Below are positions 22,350 through 28,179 of a stretch of 64,000 bases of DNA, piece by piece. Source of the DNA: Dongia mobilis. Lineage in GTDB: Bacteria > Pseudomonadota > Alphaproteobacteria > Dongiales > Dongiaceae. Made by a program: the position numbers and the translations under genes. The DNA is taken from contig NZ_SNYW01000011.1 of NCBI RefSeq assembly GCF_004363235.1, positions 186,001 through 250,000 on the forward strand, given 5' to 3'. The notes beneath the pieces are model-generated. The model was not told the DNA's origin. It saw nothing but the letters and a program-made list of their open reading frames with translations, and did no database searches. The number at the start of each line of letters is the position of its first letter. The stretch's first letter is position 1.

Positions 22350-23561
22350 ATGATGCCGCTCTCCAAGCAGGTCCTGCTGCGCGCATTGGCGCCGTTTGCG
22401 GCCGGCTATTTCACCTCCTATTTGTTCCGCGTGGTCAACGCCGCGATCTCGGACGACCTGATTGCCGAACTGGGCTTGAGCAACACCGATCTCGGCTTCA
22501 TGACGGCGATGTATCTCTATGGCTTCGTGCTCATCCAACTGCCGCTGGGGTTGCTGCTCGACAGGTTCGGCCCGCGCCTGGTCCAGACCTTCCTGCTTCT
22601 GGTCGCGGCGGCGGGCGCCGCCTGGTTCAGCTTCGCCGACCATACGCTGTCGCTGGCGCTCGCCCGCTTCCTCATCGGTCTTGGCCTCGGTGGATGCCTC
22701 ATGTCGGCCTTCAAGGCCAATGCCATGTGGCTGCCGAGCGACCGGCTGGCGCTTGGCAATTCTGCCGTCGTGACTTTCGGCGCGCTCGGTTTCCTGGCCG
22801 GCACCTATCCCGCCAACCTGCTGGCCGATCTCATCGGCTGGCGGCCGCTCTTCTGGCTGCTGACGCTGTTCACCCTTGCCGTCGCGGCGACGATCTTCCT
22901 GGTGGTGCCGAAGCGTGACGACGACCATCGGCCGGTCGCGCTGTCAACGCAGTTGAGGGGCTACTGGGGCATCTTCCTCGATCCCGTCTTCTGGCGCGTG
23001 GCACCGGTGGTCGCCGCGATCTCCGGCACCTTCATCGCGACGCAGAGCCTGTGGGCGACGCGCTGGATGACGGATGTCATGGGGCTGGACCAGCAAAGCG
23101 CCAACGCGCAACTGATGATACTGGGGCTCGCCTTTGCCGTAGGTTCGCTGTCGACCGGCCTTATCGCCGACCGGCTGCAGCGTCACGGTATCGGCCTGAA
23201 GACCGTCGTCGCCGGCGCCTTTGCTCTTTTCGCGGCGGCGCAATTGGCGATGATTTTTGCGCTGCCGCTGCCGCTCCCCGTCATCTGGATCGCCTATGGC
23301 TTCACCGGCCAGGCCGCCAATCTGGGCTATGCCACCCTCGCCACCCATTTCGGCCGGGATCTTGCCGGGCGCGCGCAATCCGCTGCAAACCTCTTGCTGT
23401 TCCTGGCCTCGGCCCTGTTCCAGTCGGGCACCGGCTGGGTGCTGGATCACGTCGGCGACGTGGATCGCGGCTATCAGATCGCCTTCGGCCTGCTGCTCGT
23501 CCTCGAGGTCGCGGCCTTCGCCTGGTACGCCGCTGGCCGCTACGATGCGCGGCGCCCCTGA
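22350..23561 (+). CDS. Major facilitator superfamily transporter
   Basis: A 403-residue, twelve-helix MFS permease. LLLDRFGPRLVQT (about residues 66-78) is the conserved loop 2-3 motif, and FLIGLGLGGCLMSAFKAN lies in helix 4. The second half begins near FWRVAPVVAAISG. The substrate is not recognisable. It starts at the ATG 4 bases after the DMT gene stop without its own Shine-Dalgarno, so translation is probably coupled. Its 3' end overlaps the convergent DoxX gene by 22 bases. Confidence 0.9.
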   Translation: MMPLSKQVLLRALAPFAAGYFTSYLFRVVNAAISDDLIAELGLSNTDLGFMTAMYLYGFVLIQLPLGLLLDRFGPRLVQTFLLLVAAAGAAWFSFADHTLSLALARFLIGLGLGGCLMSAFKANAMWLPSDRLALGNSAVVTFGALGFLAGTYPANLLADLIGWRPLFWLLTLFTLAVAATIFLVVPKRDDDHRPVALSTQLRGYWGIFLDPVFWRVAPVVAAISGTFIATQSLWATRWMTDVMGLDQQSANAQLMILGLAFAVGSLSTGLIADRLQRHGIGLKTVVAGAFALFAAAQLAMIFALPLPLPVIWIAYGFTGQAANLGYATLATHFGRDLAGRAQSAANLLLFLASALFQSGTGWVLDHVGDVDRGYQIAFGLLLVLEVAAFAWYAAGRYDARRP

Positions 23562-24001
23562 GCCATCGTGGCGCCGACCCGCTGGCTTGCCAGCAGATGA
23601 TCCAGCGACAGCCGGCCGGCGCCGAATATCACCAGATAGAGCATCGCCGCCGCCCAGACGGCGTGGGTATCGAAGGCGTTGGGATAGACGAAGACCTGGA
23701 TCACCGCCGTCATGCCGAGCAATGCAAGTGCTGCAAAGCGCGTGCCCAGACCCAGGAAAAGCAGGAACGGCAGGGACAATTCCACCGCCATTGCCAGCGG
23801 GGCGGCAATCTCCGGCGGCAGGAACGGCAGGCGGTATTCGCTCTCGAACAGCGCCAGGGTCAGCCCGCTTTCCCAGCCATCCAGTTTGAGCAGTCCGGAG
23901 CGCAGGAAAATGGCACCGATGCCGAGCCGTGCCAGCACGGCAACAAAATCGGCCGGGATGCGGGTGAAGAGGGAATTGAGGCGGTCGATGATGGCGATCA
24001 T
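23540..24001 (-). CDS. bufD: DoxX-family membrane protein of the bufferin operon
   Basis: A 153-residue inner-membrane protein with four hydrophobic helices. LARLGIGAIFLRSGLLKLDGW (residues 22-42) and AMAVELSLPFLLFLGLGTR are DoxX signatures. DoxX proteins are the usual fourth member of bufferin (gig-type) operons, in which their role is still unclear; involvement in redox or membrane handling is suggested. The ATG overlaps the stop of the HvfC-like gene by 4 bases, which indicates translational coupling. The gene ends inside the convergent MFS gene. Confidence 0.85.
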   Translation of the reverse strand: MIAIIDRLNSLFTRIPADFVAVLARLGIGAIFLRSGLLKLDGWESGLTLALFESEYRLPFLPPEIAAPLAMAVELSLPFLLFLGLGTRFAALALLGMTAVIQVFVYPNAFDTHAVWAAAMLYLVIFGAGRLSLDHLLASQRVGATMAQGRRAS

Positions 24002-24795
24002 GCGGGGTCACTCCGTCTGGCAGCGTCGTCGCTGACTGGAAAAAAGCCGGTGAGAATCCCGGCGCTCAACAGGAAGGCAAGGGCTGCGGTCAAATCGGCA
24101 CCGACCAGATTGGTCGCATCCCCCAGCGCAACACCCGCCTGCAGGCGTTCGACAAAATCCGCGCGCGACGCCGGCACGGCATGGATCTCGGCGACCAGAC
24201 CGGGACGGACCAGGAGGGCGTTCTCGCCGGGCAGACCGGCCGGCACGACGGCCGGGTTGGCGGGGTCAATATTCGCGCGCCAGATCGAGACGATCGGGAA
24301 AGGCGAGCGGAGAATGGCGAGGCTGGGATGCAGGGTGAAGCGAAGCCGCGCCATGACATCCGGCGGCTGGGCCGCCAGAGCGGCGCGATCGATCGGCGCC
24401 GCATCCGCCGCCAGCAAGGCGCAGTGCCGCAGCCATTCCAGGCGCGCCACATCGGCGAGATAGGCAAGATGCTGCGACGGCGGAAACCGCTCGACAAAGT
24501 TTGGAAAAAGGGCGCCGTATTCCAACAGAACCGGCCCGGCGGGCGGATGCTGCCGGATGAAGGCGTCCGTCAGTGCTGCGAAAAAATCGGCACCAAGCAG
24601 ACGACGCAGCACGGGGAATCGATCCGCCAAGACGCGCCCAAGGCCCGCCGCCATGTTGTTGCGATAGATGGCGAAGCGAACCGCGGGATCGACGCCCGGA
24701 CGCGCGGCAAGCCTCGCCGGGATGGCGCTGCGCGGCTCCCGCAGGGCGGCAGCGAAGGCCTCCGGAAATGCAGCTTGCTCAGGCGATGGCGACAT
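23998..24795 (-). CDS. bufC: HvfC/BufC-like (DUF2063) partner protein
   Basis: A 265-residue protein with an N-terminal DUF2063 domain: FAAALREP, then VRFAIYRNNMAAGLGRVLADRFPVL-type sequence (residues 20-75) and AFIRQHPPAGPVLLEYGALF. This family pairs with MNIO enzymes, contacts the precursor peptide and is needed for its modification. Although called a DNA-binding domain in some databases, a peptide-recognition role fits this operon better. ATG 24795 lies inside the 3' end of bufB (17-base overlap), and the stop overlaps bufD by 4 bases, so all three are tightly coupled. Confidence 0.88.
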   Translation of the reverse strand: MSPSPEQAAFPEAFAAALREPRSAIPARLAARPGVDPAVRFAIYRNNMAAGLGRVLADRFPVLRRLLGADFFAALTDAFIRQHPPAGPVLLEYGALFPNFVERFPPSQHLAYLADVARLEWLRHCALLAADAAPIDRAALAAQPPDVMARLRFTLHPSLAILRSPFPIVSIWRANIDPANPAVVPAGLPGENALLVRPGLVAEIHAVPASRADFVERLQAGVALGDATNLVGADLTAALAFLLSAGILTGFFPVSDDAARRSDPA

Positions 24796-25699
24796 GACGC
24801 GCCTCGGCCAACGCATTCCCGGCCAGCTGACGAGCCAGCGACGCCTCGCTGACGAGGCGCGGCCAATCGGGCAAATCCTGGTCCCATTCGATCAGGACCG
24901 GCACCCCGGCCAGCCGCGGCGCAATCGCCGCAAACAGGTCCCAGACCGGATCGGCAACGGGCATGCCATGCGTGTCGATGAGCAGGCTGCCTCCGTCGGC
25001 ATCCCGGCAATGATCATGGCCGGCCAGATGGATCTGTGCCACAGCGTCTTGCGGGAATTCGGCGAGCATCGCCCAGGAATCCCAGCCGGCATTGATGGCC
25101 GAGACGTAGAGATTGTTGATATCCAGCAGCAGCCGGCAGCCGCTGCGCCGGGAGAGTTCGGCCAGAAACTCCGCCTCGCTCATCTCGCTCTCGGCGAAGG
25201 TGAGATAAAGCGACGGATTCTCAATCAGGATCTGACGGCCAAGGCAATCCTGCGTCTCGGCCACATGCGCGCTCATCCGCGCCAGATTGGCCTGCGTATA
25301 GGGCAGTGGCAGCAGGTCGTTGAAATAGGTGCCGCCATGGCTGGACCAGGCGAGGTGCTCGGAGAAATGGAACGGTTGGTAGCGATCGACAAGCTGGCGC
25401 AGCCGCGCCAGATGGCGGCGATCCGGCCGGTCGGCACCGCCAAGCGAAAGGCCGACGCCATGAAAGGACAGCGGCAAGTCCTGACGCAGCGCTGTCAGGA
25501 AGTGATGCTGCGGCCCACCATCGCACAGGTAGTTCTCGGGATGTACCTCAAGGAAATCCACCGCCCCCGGTTCAGCGAGTGCCGCGCGAAAGTGCGGCGG
25601 CCGCAGGCCGACCCCGGCCGGTGGGGACAATCCGGCCGGGGTCGGGCGTGAGGCCGGCACCGCGCTGGTGGACAGGCTGGGGATGCGGCGCGGCGCCAT
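24779..25699 (-). CDS. bufB: MNIO (DUF692) enzyme of the bufferin operon
   Basis: A 306-residue multinuclear non-heme iron oxidative enzyme. After a 25-residue leader the TIM barrel begins GVGLRPPHF. Metal-ligand segments expected for the family are present: FLEVHPENY, LSFHGVGLSLG, HFSEHLAWSS, ILIENPSLYL, LLLDINNLYVS and AQIHLAGHDH. In characterised bufferin systems MNIO enzymes convert precursor cysteines into thiooxazole groups. The gene begins 8 bases after the precursor gene and overlaps bufC. The frame is open far upstream, but ATG 25699 is the only start after the precursor stop that gives the family N-terminus. Confidence 0.92.
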   Translation of the reverse strand: MAPRRIPSLSTSAVPASRPTPAGLSPPAGVGLRPPHFRAALAEPGAVDFLEVHPENYLCDGGPQHHFLTALRQDLPLSFHGVGLSLGGADRPDRRHLARLRQLVDRYQPFHFSEHLAWSSHGGTYFNDLLPLPYTQANLARMSAHVAETQDCLGRQILIENPSLYLTFAESEMSEAEFLAELSRRSGCRLLLDINNLYVSAINAGWDSWAMLAEFPQDAVAQIHLAGHDHCRDADGGSLLIDTHGMPVADPVWDLFAAIAPRLAGVPVLIEWDQDLPDWPRLVSEASLARQLAGNALAEARHVAIA

Positions 25700-25707
25700 C
25701 GGCGGCC

Positions 25708-25995
25708 TCAGGACTCGATCGGCGCCAGGGAACCGGGACGTGTGCTGCCGTCGGGCAGGGTCACCATGGTGGTTTCGCAGGTGCCGGCAGGCACCAGTTT
25801 CCAGGCCTGCTTGTCGAAATCGACCTTCGACGTGCCGGCGCAGGAATTGCCGCCGGTCGAGGCACAATCGTTCTGGCCGGCAAGCGAGATGCCATAGCAC
25901 TTTTCGGTTCCCTCGGCCGCGGCCGGAACGGCCGACAATGCCAATGCCGAAAGCAGGGAGCCGGCGATGGTCAGGCCGGCGGTTCGACGGTTCAT
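25708..25995 (-). CDS. bufA1: DUF2282 bufferin precursor peptide, BufA1 type
   Basis: A 95-residue exported precursor. The signal peptide ([20 protein letters not shown], cleavage likely after AAA at residue 27) is followed by a core with four cysteines at residues 33, 44, 52 and 73, in the family context [24 protein letters not shown] and [11 protein letters not shown]. Related peptides carry modified cysteines, bind copper and buffer the periplasm against the metal (established for Caulobacter-type bufferins; not shown here). ATG 25995 has GAGGAA six bases upstream. A GTG 12 bases earlier is less likely. An ECF-type promoter lies at 26045-26070. Confidence 0.92.
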
Positions 25996-26044
25996 GTGGT
26001 TCCTCACAGTTGCAGTTGGGCCGGGATCGGCTTACAGGAGGCAA

Positions 26045-26070
26045 TACGCCGCAGGAACGGGCACCGTTAC
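26045..26070 (-). promoter_or_regulatory. ECF-type promoter of the bufferin operon
   Basis: On the minus strand GTAACG (26065-26070) and CGTA (26045-26048) are separated by 16 bases, about 50 bases upstream of the precursor ATG. It mirrors the sigF-side promoter GTAACA-N15-CGAA. The elements agree with the GTAAC/CG(A/T)A type expected for SigF-like ECF factors (inference). Confidence 0.65.
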
Positions 26071-26130
26071 GCCGCATTGGGCGGCGCAACTGCAATTTCG
26101 ACTGATGGCAATTTCGACCGATTCCGGCCT

Positions 26131-26155
26131 GTAACATTGTCAATCCGCCGGCGAA
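26131..26155 (+). promoter_or_regulatory. ECF-type autoregulatory promoter of the sigma factor gene
   Basis: GTAACA (26131-26136) and CGAA (26152-26155) are separated by 15 bases. The predicted transcription start falls about 10 bases before the GTG at 26171. The same -35 core GTAAC occurs in the divergent bufferin promoter. Confidence 0.65.
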
Positions 26156-26170
26156 CAGAATGGTAAAGGC

Positions 26171-26725
26171 GTGAGAGAAATCGAGTTGGATCTGGCCGCG
26201 GCAATGCGGAGCGCCCTGGACGGCGACGAAACGGCCTATCGGCGGCTGCTCGGCGACCTCGCCGGTTTGCTGCGCGGCTGGATCCGGCGCGAGCTTGCCC
26301 GTCAGGGTTACAACGTTGCGGATGCCGAGGACATCGTGCAGGAAACATTGATCGCCATTCACCTGAAGCGGGGCACCTGGGACCGGGAGCGTCCGTTCCT
26401 GCCCTGGCTGCGGGCGATCAGTCGGCACAAGATGGTCGACAACCTGCGCCGTCGCGGGCGTCGCATCGTCATACCGATCGAGGAGTTTGCCGAGGTGCTG
26501 GCAGCGCCTGAACCGGAGGAGAGCCTGCCAGCCGATGCCCTTGACCGGCATCTGGCGCAATTGCCCAAGGGCCAGGAGAAAGTGGTGCGCGCAATTTCGG
26601 TCGACGGCATGAGCATCGCGGAAACGGCGCAGCACCTGATGATGAAGGAAGGCGCCGTCCGCGTGGCACTCCATCGCGGCTTGACCGCCCTCGCCCGTGC
26701 CGCGCGGCGCGCCGAAACGACATGA
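26171..26725 (+). CDS. sigF: ECF RNA polymerase sigma factor, SigF-like
   Basis: A 184-residue extracytoplasmic-function sigma factor. Region 2 contains NVADAEDIVQETLIAIH and FLPWLRAISRHKMVDNLRRR (-10 recognition); region 4 contains LPKGQEKVVRAISVDGMS and AETAQHLMMKEGAVRVALHR (-35 recognition). Its pairing with a DUF1109 anti-sigma gene and its position opposite a bufferin operon match the SigF-NrsF system of Caulobacter, which responds to heavy metals. The GTG at 26171 sits just after AAAGG. The leader from the predicted promoter would be very short. The stop is followed 10 bases later by the anti-sigma gene. Confidence 0.9.
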   Translation: MREIELDLAAAMRSALDGDETAYRRLLGDLAGLLRGWIRRELARQGYNVADAEDIVQETLIAIHLKRGTWDRERPFLPWLRAISRHKMVDNLRRRGRRIVIPIEEFAEVLAAPEPEESLPADALDRHLAQLPKGQEKVVRAISVDGMSIAETAQHLMMKEGAVRVALHRGLTALARAARRAETT

Positions 26726-26735
26726 AGAAGACGAT

Positions 26736-27371
26736 ATGAAGACCGATCAACTCATCGACAGCCTCGTTGCCGACCAAGGGCGCCGGGTGAACGGCAGTGG
26801 AATGACGCTGCTGGCCTCCTTGCCGATCGCGTTGCTGGTCAGTATCGCCCTCTTTGCCTATGTCCTTGATATGCGTGACGACCTCGCGGCGGCGCTGGAA
26901 TCTTGGCGCTATCTGCTGAAGCTGTTGCTGCCCGCGCTCGTCGCTGTCGCCGCCATCGCGCTGATGCTGCATTTGGCGCGACCGCAAGCCGCCGCCGCGG
27001 TACTCCGCTGGCTGGCCTGGCTGGCTGTGCCGCTGGTCCTCGGGTTGCTAGCCGAGGCGGTTCTGGTCCCCCGCGAATCATGGGGAGTAGTCGCGATCGG
27101 ACAGAATCCGCTCTTCTGCCTGTTCTTCGTGCCGGCACTGTCACTGCCGCCACTGGCCGCCGCCCTATGGTCCCTCTCGCGCGGCGCCCCGCAATCCCCG
27201 ACGGCCGCGGGTATCGTTGCAGGACTTGCAGCCGGCGGAATCGGCGCACTCCTCTATGCCGCGCATTGCGACAACGACTCACCTTTCTATCTGGCCCTTT
27301 GGTATCTGGGCGGGATCTCCATAGTCACCCTGCTGGGTGGGTTGATCGGGCACCGCTATCTGCGCTGGTAA
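26736..27371 (+). CDS. nrsF: NrsF-like (DUF1109) membrane anti-sigma factor
   Basis: A 211-residue inner-membrane protein with about six helices (from residue 24). It starts MKTDQLIDSLVAD, the cytoplasmic segment expected to hold the sigma factor. Two conserved cysteines are seen at 128 (FCLFFVPALSLPPL) and 178 (AAHCDNDSPFYLALWY). In Caulobacter NrsF equivalent cysteines are needed to sense metals and release SigF (established for that protein). It is co-transcribed with the sigma factor. Membrane sensing of copper or a related stress would close the loop with the bufferin operon (inference). Confidence 0.9.
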   Translation: MKTDQLIDSLVADQGRRVNGSGMTLLASLPIALLVSIALFAYVLDMRDDLAAALESWRYLLKLLLPALVAVAAIALMLHLARPQAAAAVLRWLAWLAVPLVLGLLAEAVLVPRESWGVVAIGQNPLFCLFFVPALSLPPLAAALWSLSRGAPQSPTAAGIVAGLAAGGIGALLYAAHCDNDSPFYLALWYLGGISIVTLLGGLIGHRYLRW

Positions 27372-27456
27372 GCGCTCCGTTCACTGTGGGTTCCAACATA
27401 GGTCAAAGGCTGCGCCATGGTTGGCGGCGCCCGGCCTTTCGATTATGCTGGCGCCC

Positions 27457-28179
27457 ATGGGAACGACACCGACTCAGCCTGCCGAACGCACCCTGCGCGC
27501 TTTTCCGCTCCTCGAGGGCCTGTCAGATTCCGATCTGAAGGCGCTGGAATCGCGCTGCCGCTGGCGTACCTGTGACAAGGGGCAGACCATCCTCGACAAG
27601 GGGGCGACCTCGCGCGATGTGTTCTTCGTGCTGCGCGGTTCGGTCGCCGTGGTGACCTTTTCGCCCACCGGCAAGGAAGTCACGCTGGCGACGGTAAAGC
27701 CCGGCGAGTCATTCGGCGAACTGGCCGCGATCGACGAGCAGCCGCGCTCTGCCAGCGTCACCGCGATCGAGAAGTCGGAACTGTGCATCATGCCGCCGGA
27801 GATATTCGTCGACCTGGTGCGGACCAATGCCGTCGTCTCGTTCCGCCTGCTGCAGCGCATGGCCCGGCTGGTACGACAAAGCGGGTTGCGCATCATGGAA
27901 TTGTCGACCCTGCAGGCGGCGCAACGCGTCTACGCCGAATTGCTGCGCATGGCGCAGCCGGAACCGGCCGTGCCGGGGCTCTGGGTGGTGCGGCCGCTGC
28001 CGCCGATGCATGAGATTGCCGGCATGACCAGCACGACGCGCGAAACCGTGAACCGCGCGGTCAGCCAGCTCTATCCCAGCGGGCTGCTGAAGCGGAAGGG
28101 GCGCAACCTCTATCTGATGGACCGCAACAAGCTGGAAGAGCTGGTGCAGTCGCTGCAGGCCCACCACAATCACAAATAG
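27457..28179 (+). CDS. Crp/Fnr-family transcriptional regulator
   Basis: A 240-residue regulator with a cyclic-nucleotide-binding-like barrel (about residues 18-125; FFVLRGSVAVVTFSPTGKEV, GESFGELAAIDEQPRSASVTA) and a Crp-type helix-turn-helix (about residues 165-220; MHEIAGMTSTTRETVNRAVSQL). PGESFGELAAIDEQPRSAS resembles the phosphate-binding cassette of cAMP-binding members, with the Arg-Ser pair present, so cAMP is a plausible ligand. There is no Fnr-type cysteine cluster. ATG 27457 is one of several possible starts (ATG 27445, TTG 27421). A 10-bp tandem duplication covers the stop codon. Confidence 0.88.
   Translation: MGTTPTQPAERTLRAFPLLEGLSDSDLKALESRCRWRTCDKGQTILDKGATSRDVFFVLRGSVAVVTFSPTGKEVTLATVKPGESFGELAAIDEQPRSASVTAIEKSELCIMPPEIFVDLVRTNAVVSFRLLQRMARLVRQSGLRIMELSTLQAAQRVYAELLRMAQPEPAVPGLWVVRPLPPMHEIAGMTSTTRETVNRAVSQLYPSGLLKRKGRNLYLMDRNKLEELVQSLQAHHNHK

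Follow-up and report, generated by a model that had tools for sequence, protein, structure and literature searches.

Positions 23540-27371 of a 64,000-nucleotide stretch of Dongia mobilis DNA (contig NZ_SNYW01000011.1; this whole stretch is referred to as the window) hold a bufferin-1 operon, bufA1BCD, which faces a divergent pair of genes, sigF and nrsF, encoding an extracytoplasmic function (ECF) sigma factor and its predicted membrane anti-sigma factor. We consider it likely that this is a bufferin-1 operon with an ECF16-type switch that acts on its own locus as well as on unlinked targets. The genes, their cysteines, the motif sites and the conservation of these sites were observed in D. 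mobilis; the scheme that connects them would be as follows. NrsF would sit in the inner membrane and hold SigF until excess copper, or another thiol-reactive periplasmic stress, changes NrsF through its cysteines and releases SigF. The sigma factor would then read promoters of the form GTAAC-N16/17-CGWA ahead of sigF itself and bufA1BCD and, in trans, ahead of an unlinked bufA2BC operon, a DUF1223 thioredoxin-fold gene and msrQ, probably together with a DsbD-like reductase gene and msrA. BufB and BufC would convert the two central BufA cysteines to thiooxazoles, and the exported BufA peptide would sequester periplasmic copper; thiooxazole formation and copper binding have been described for bufferin 1 (PMC12452194, PMC13097082). 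We infer that the whole scheme, including the wider regulon, holds in D. mobilis; its statements on induction and chemistry, as well as those on metal sensing and copper binding by the module, are carried over from relatives.

A sequence-only reading of the window had proposed the six-gene layout, four cysteines in the DUF2282 precursor, two cysteines in NrsF and overlapping or near-touching gene ends, and had presented the whole as a self-contained module in a new host. The gene ends and the Pfam and NCBIfam matches agreed with the layout, whose genes and predicted promoters are listed below.

23540..24001, minus strand: doxX-type gene (bufD), 153 amino acids; Pfam DoxX (PF07681), 61.6 bits (cut-off 23.6)
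23998..24816, minus strand: bufC, DUF2063 partner of the MNIO enzyme, 272 amino acids; Pfam DUF2063 (PF09836), 85.1 bits (cut-off 27.2)
24779..25699, minus strand: bufB, MNIO bufferin maturase, 306 amino acids; NF050167, 374 bits (cut-off 310)
25708..25995, minus strand: bufA1, DUF2282 bufferin precursor, 95 amino acids, ATG start; PF10048, 81.9 bits (cut-off 22.4)
26045..26070, minus strand: predicted ECF16/SigF-like promoter of bufA1, GTAAC-N17-CGTA, 75 bases before the bufA1 ATG
26131..26155, plus strand: predicted ECF16/SigF-like promoter of sigF, GTAAC-N16-CGAA, 40 bases before the sigF GTG
26171..26725, plus strand: sigF, ECF sigma factor, 184 amino acids, GTG start; Sigma70_r2, 43.5 bits, and Sigma70_r4_2, 42.2 bits
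26736..27371, plus strand: nrsF, membrane anti-sigma factor, 211 amino acids; PF06532 NrsF, 161.9 bits (cut-off 26.8)

All Pfam matches for the six genes exceeded the curated cut-offs, including that of BufB to MbnB_TglH_ChrH (PF05114, 340.8 bits), and SigF also matched NF009165 (240.6 bits, cut-off 198). Four NCBIfam models, those for NrsF, BufA2 and the DoxX and HvfC partners, matched the proteins of the module only below their own cut-offs; the HvfX-family (DoxX partner) model gave 47.3 bits on the doxX product (cut-off 80), and the HvfC model 53.2 bits on BufC (cut-off 142). The best solved relative of BufB was chain 3bww (E 7.8e-40). We took an ATG inside the longer listed open frame as the start of bufB, and the ATG of bufA1 instead of the GTG at 26007 where its listed frame begins; a downstream ATG in bufC would give a slightly shorter protein. 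With these starts, doxX and bufC overlap by 4 bases, bufC and bufB share at most 38 (the downstream bufC ATG would reduce this), and 8 bases separate bufB from bufA1, as had been claimed. The cysteines of BufA1 were found at the proposed positions 33, 44, 52 and 73, and all four were kept in 28/28 aligned rows. Its N-terminus, read off the sequence by inspection only, is basic, then hydrophobic and signal-like, ending in AAAE. The gene 3′ of nrsF (27421-28179) encodes a Crp/Fnr-type regulator and was excluded from the module.

The D. mobilis genome (4.19 Mb in 14 contigs) contains one DUF2282 gene, two MNIO genes and, as its sole NrsF match, the nrsF gene described here. In 6 of 7 same-genus genomes, a divergent pair of DUF2282 and NrsF matches was separated by less than 1 kb, and 8 of 27 named related loci have relatives of SigF and NrsF next to bufABC on the other strand, which argues that the arrangement is not due to chance; one stretch (L002, the same as the G002 contig) was counted in both sets. 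The observed layout is confirmed, and we regard the module as real and complete, and of a kind that is already well described. As for the new host, a further genus is indeed added, but the layout itself is not novel and the claim adds little, since the same arrangement occurs in Caulobacter, Sinorhizobium meliloti, Pseudooceanicola, Tropicimonas, Primorskyibacter and loci of a Caulobacter metagenome-assembled genome.

The predicted divergent promoters suggest a link between the operon and the sigma factor. The motif reported for Caulobacter SigF is GTAACC-N16-CGAA (PMC3511200), and the ECF16 promoter consensus is (T/C)GTAAC-N17-CGAA (PMC8315932). When the whole D. mobilis genome was scanned for GTAAC-N15..18-CGWA, 45 sites were obtained, 22 of them with N16 or N17. 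Each of the two sites inside the divergon departs once from the ECF16 consensus, the bufA1 site in its CGTA box and the sigF site in its N16 spacer. Sites were present at matching places ahead of bufA1 and sigF in 6/6 same-genus divergons, and dinucleotide shuffling of the 163-base divergent stretch, repeated 20,000 times, produced any site in 43 cases and one site per strand in none. These matches, together with homology, point to a bufferin-1 operon with a SigF-NrsF pair, as the earlier reading held; the pair is provisionally labelled ECF16-type.

The spacing of the two sites differed in a consistent way. Among the 11 divergons with both sites, the bufA site had N17 in all 11 and the sigF site N16 in 7 (Fisher 0.002), a comparison that omits L011, which has two N16 sites on the bufA side and none on the sigF side, and L009, with a sigF-side site only. 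The same pair appears in the promoter table published for S. meliloti (PMC6180224), where the rpoE7 promoter reads GTAAC-N16-CGAA and that of the operon has N17, according to our own count of the spacing. With its shorter spacer, the sigF promoter may allow only weak autoregulation. In 6/6 same-genus genomes, 39-43 bases separate the start of the motif from the sigF start codon, a distance that implies a very short leader or an almost leaderless sigF transcript.

Evidence for targets outside the divergon came from the second MNIO gene of D. mobilis, which lies on contig C3 after a six-cysteine precursor. This precursor matched the BufA2 model NF050166 (89.5 bits, cut-off 60), the MNIO protein matched NF050167 (383.7 bits, cut-off 310), and the DUF2063-type partner reached 39.3 bits on the HvfC model, under its cut-off of 142. 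The operon and its site are as follows.

L059:1124-3122 and L114:5836-7731 (contig C3): bufferin-2 operon, with a GTAAC-N17-CGAA site 130 bases before the precursor start

The bufA2 operon was read in 5 of the 7 same-genus genomes, and in all five a site stood 117 to 145 bases ahead of the precursor. As in D. mobilis, each of these five genomes contains a single NrsF match, so a second sigma/NrsF pair is not needed to explain control of bufA2. In a published survey, Buf1 clusters contained sigma/NrsF genes and Buf2 clusters did not (PMC12452194); given that the switch linked to Buf1 has matching sites at the Buf2 operon, the two can be studied together. The gene downstream of the bufferin-2 operon is convergent and encodes an FGE-sulfatase domain; the same survey notes bufferin fusions with this domain and calls FGE-sulfatase enzymes cuproenzymes.

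Across the family, the presence of the site followed that of NrsF. A site was found in 15 of the 18 bufferin loci read in 10 NrsF genomes, compared with 0/7 in genomes without NrsF (6 of 7 such genomes); the count omits L100 (G010), whose contig begins inside the precursor, and further DUF2282 places in G008 (C7), G009, G010, G011, G013 and G014. Likewise, strict sites were present in 8/8 named loci with NrsF and in 0/19 without it. The fractions 15/18, 0/7, 10/10 and 0/6 and the spacer tables were counted by hand. In two extra DUF2282/MNIO loci, L102 (G005, contig C13) and L103 (G006, contig C169), the precursor lies approximately 2.8 kb from the MNIO gene and a strict site is lacking, in contrast to the other bufferin loci of the same genomes. 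L108 (G015, contig C60), from a genome without NrsF, has three same-strand DUF2282 matches near one MNIO gene.

To delimit the predicted regulon, we compared 181 sites from the seven same-genus genomes, considering frames whose start lies 20 to 300 bases beyond the site. DUF1223, sigF and bufA1 were found behind a site in six genomes each, msrQ and bufA2 in five, and rpoH in four. A DegP-like protease (Trypsin_2 and PDZ domains), a molybdopterin oxidoreductase (PF00174), MsrA and a TPR protein followed in three each, and a DsbD-like gene, a cyclase-type gene and a small thiol-motif protein in two each, these last counts coming from a comparison that omitted G004 and three G007 sites. The DUF1223 assignment (190.3 bits) and that of MsrA (219.6 bits, above the cut-off of 108.1) were accompanied by a MsrQ assignment just below its cut-off (117.6 bits against 130); the DsbD-like protein has DsbD_N, DsbD_TM and Thioredoxin_7 domains. 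Judged by the genome-wide density, any one upstream region of 150 bases would contain a site with a probability of roughly 0.00045, which is a lower bound because the intergenic density is higher. The DsbD-like gene (L303:3869-5862, contig C3) starts 35 bases after its site, and the spacer is nearly identical in G006; this shared spacer contains TATAAT, so its conservation may have another reason.

As an independent test, relatives of DUF1223 and MsrQ were gathered by protein search, not by motif, and their upstream regions were then read. A strict site preceded 6/6 same-genus co-orthologues of DUF1223 and 0/16 other copies (7 same-genus paralogues and 9 from other genera). For MsrQ, 6 of the 14 family copies had a site (D. 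mobilis, G003, G005, G006, G007 and G012), all of them in NrsF genomes, and none was found in the 6 copies from genomes without NrsF or in the 2 from the NrsF genomes G004 and G008; within the genus, 5 of the 6 genomes having msrQ showed it. Several candidates did not survive closer inspection. The site assigned to an M16-peptidase-like cluster (a name given from reading alone) lies inside a conserved reading frame, and the cluster was dropped. The sites at rpoH stand at +56 in D. mobilis and at +208 to +271 in the three other genomes, and owing to these differing positions rpoH was not counted as conserved. A MerA-like oxidoreductase, found in one genome only, was rejected as a target, as was the msrP-like gene of D. 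mobilis for lack of a strict site.

NrsF, the predicted sensor, shows the two cysteines proposed earlier, at positions 128 and 178, and by hydropathy approximately six hydrophobic stretches. The column of C128 is Cys in 20/20 aligned rows, and that of C178 is Cys in 14/20, His in 4/20 (L069, L072, L073 and L070) and Gln in 2/20. The His variants come from G016, G008 (contig C50), G012 (contig C91) and G004; in the first three, a DUF2282 gene lies nearby on the same contig, and the His-type rows carry an additional Cys some 20 residues ahead of the first conserved one. The His at the second position could be a metal ligand. In Bradyrhizobium japonicum OsrA, the two cysteines have been given different jobs (PMC3420878). 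A plasmid search with NrsF returned 45 records, and among the matches listed were Rhizobium, Shinella, Ensifer, Sinorhizobium, Agrobacterium and three others.

A number of observations weigh against a switch that answers copper and acts on unlinked genes. Three of the 18 bufferin loci in NrsF genomes have no site, msrQ of G004 and G008 has none either, and the NrsF genomes G008 and G012 do not show the link to DUF1223. A script judged 11 of the 22 N16/N17 sites in D. mobilis to lie inside coding frames, which implies that many sites are noise, and by the same crude open-frame calling the DUF1223 and msrA sites of this genome were flagged inside another frame. No strict site was found ahead of the D. 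mobilis msrP-like gene in the stretch read. The one-sided Fisher values for the best copy per genome (DUF1223, 0.010; MsrQ, 0.009) and the association with NrsF ignore shared ancestry, and several loci come from close groups. The molybdo-oxidoreductase, DegP-like, TPR, rpoH, cyclase and MerA-like genes are weaker candidates. Regarding the signal, reporters for S. meliloti rpoE7 and a target did not respond to H2O2, cadmium or chromate (PMC6180224), and work on Cupriavidus metallidurans yielded no evidence that gig transcription is started by RpoQ (PMC10304878); sister systems respond to H2O2 (EcfF/OsrA, PMC3420878) or HOCl (Brucella BcrS, PMC8315932), not metals.

These last responses bear on the question of what NrsF detects. 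The main signal might be oxidative, chlorine or other thiol stress, with bufferins as one output and copper acting via the damage it causes; the H2O2-responsive EcfF/OsrA pair controls methionine sulfoxide reductases and a DsbD-like protein, BcrS answers HOCl, and the predicted D. mobilis targets include msrQ, msrA, the DsbD-like protein and DUF1223. On the other hand, Caulobacter SigF targets were not induced by agents making reactive oxygen species (PMC3511200), these targets were copper-induced in four conditions, sigF is important for growth in the presence of copper (PMC8224329), and the His found at the second cysteine position in some relatives is a possible metal ligand. We hold this explanation to be a serious but minority possibility.

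The extent of control can be questioned in two ways. If SigF-NrsF controlled only itself and the adjacent bufABCD, the module would be a self-contained metal module, as the sequence-only reading held; the two strongest sites do face each other inside the divergon, and the wider set was not shown for four NrsF genomes of the family outside the genus. This is improbable in view of the sites ahead of unlinked bufA2 (5/5), DUF1223 (6/6) and msrQ (5/6) in same-genus genomes, where the spacers differ between species, and of the Caulobacter regulon, which takes in the unlinked CC2907-2905 operon and CC2748 (PMC3511200). The same motif ahead of these three unlinked loci indicates that the module is probably not self-contained, and this part of the earlier claim was not borne out. 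Even less probable is a scheme in which another sigma factor of similar preference uses the conserved sites and SigF controls little: SigF is not the only user of the Caulobacter sigF promoter (PMC3511200), but the sites track NrsF presence across the family and the named loci, and every named locus with a site carries the sigF-nrsF pair itself.

We thus keep the reading of a bufferin-1 operon whose ECF16-type switch would act at its own locus and on unlinked genes. The operon itself is unremarkable among its kind, and what makes it useful is the predicted regulon, which would tie DUF1223, an uncharacterised thioredoxin-fold family, and methionine repair to copper buffering. We found no functional report tying DUF1223 to a sigma factor in a literature search. 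We lean, by a narrow margin, towards a genus-wide joint periplasmic programme in which one NrsF-gated SigF governs two copper-capturing bufferin operons together with repair by MsrQ, MsrA, the DsbD-like protein and DUF1223; if true, DUF1223 would gain a place in the repair of copper damage.

The gene order next to the sigma pair is the same in Caulobacter, where CC3252-CC3257 include the SigF-NrsF pair (CC3253-CC3252) and the operon is under SigF control (PMC3511200). The anti-sigma type is also shared, with periplasmic cysteines at 131 and 181 in Caulobacter and at 128 and 178 in D. mobilis, as are the promoter type and a second unlinked operon with the motif. The Caulobacter regulon comprises eight genes under chromium stress, including msrP (CC2748); unlike it, the predicted D. 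mobilis set lacks a strict site at the msrP-like gene and has sites at msrQ, DUF1223, the DsbD-like gene and msrA. In S. meliloti RpoE7-EcfR7, an ECF16 sigma gene is likewise divergent from a DUF692/DUF2063 operon (SMb20527-SMb20530), and RpoE7 overexpression revealed seven targets, with no bufferin-2 operon mentioned in the available passages (PMC6180224). C. metallidurans rpoQ-rsqA is divergent from the bufferin-type gigPABT, which is copper-responsive and contributes to copper resistance (PMC10304878). The ECF16-type pair EcfF-OsrA of B. japonicum (cysteines 129 and 179) differs in answering H2O2, and the available passages do not mention bufferin genes; its targets, among them methionine sulfoxide reductases as well as a thioredoxin and a DsbD-like protein, resemble those predicted in D. 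mobilis (PMC3420878). The joint programme, if true, would merge the metal half of the Caulobacter and S. meliloti regulon with the redox-repair half of that of Bradyrhizobium.

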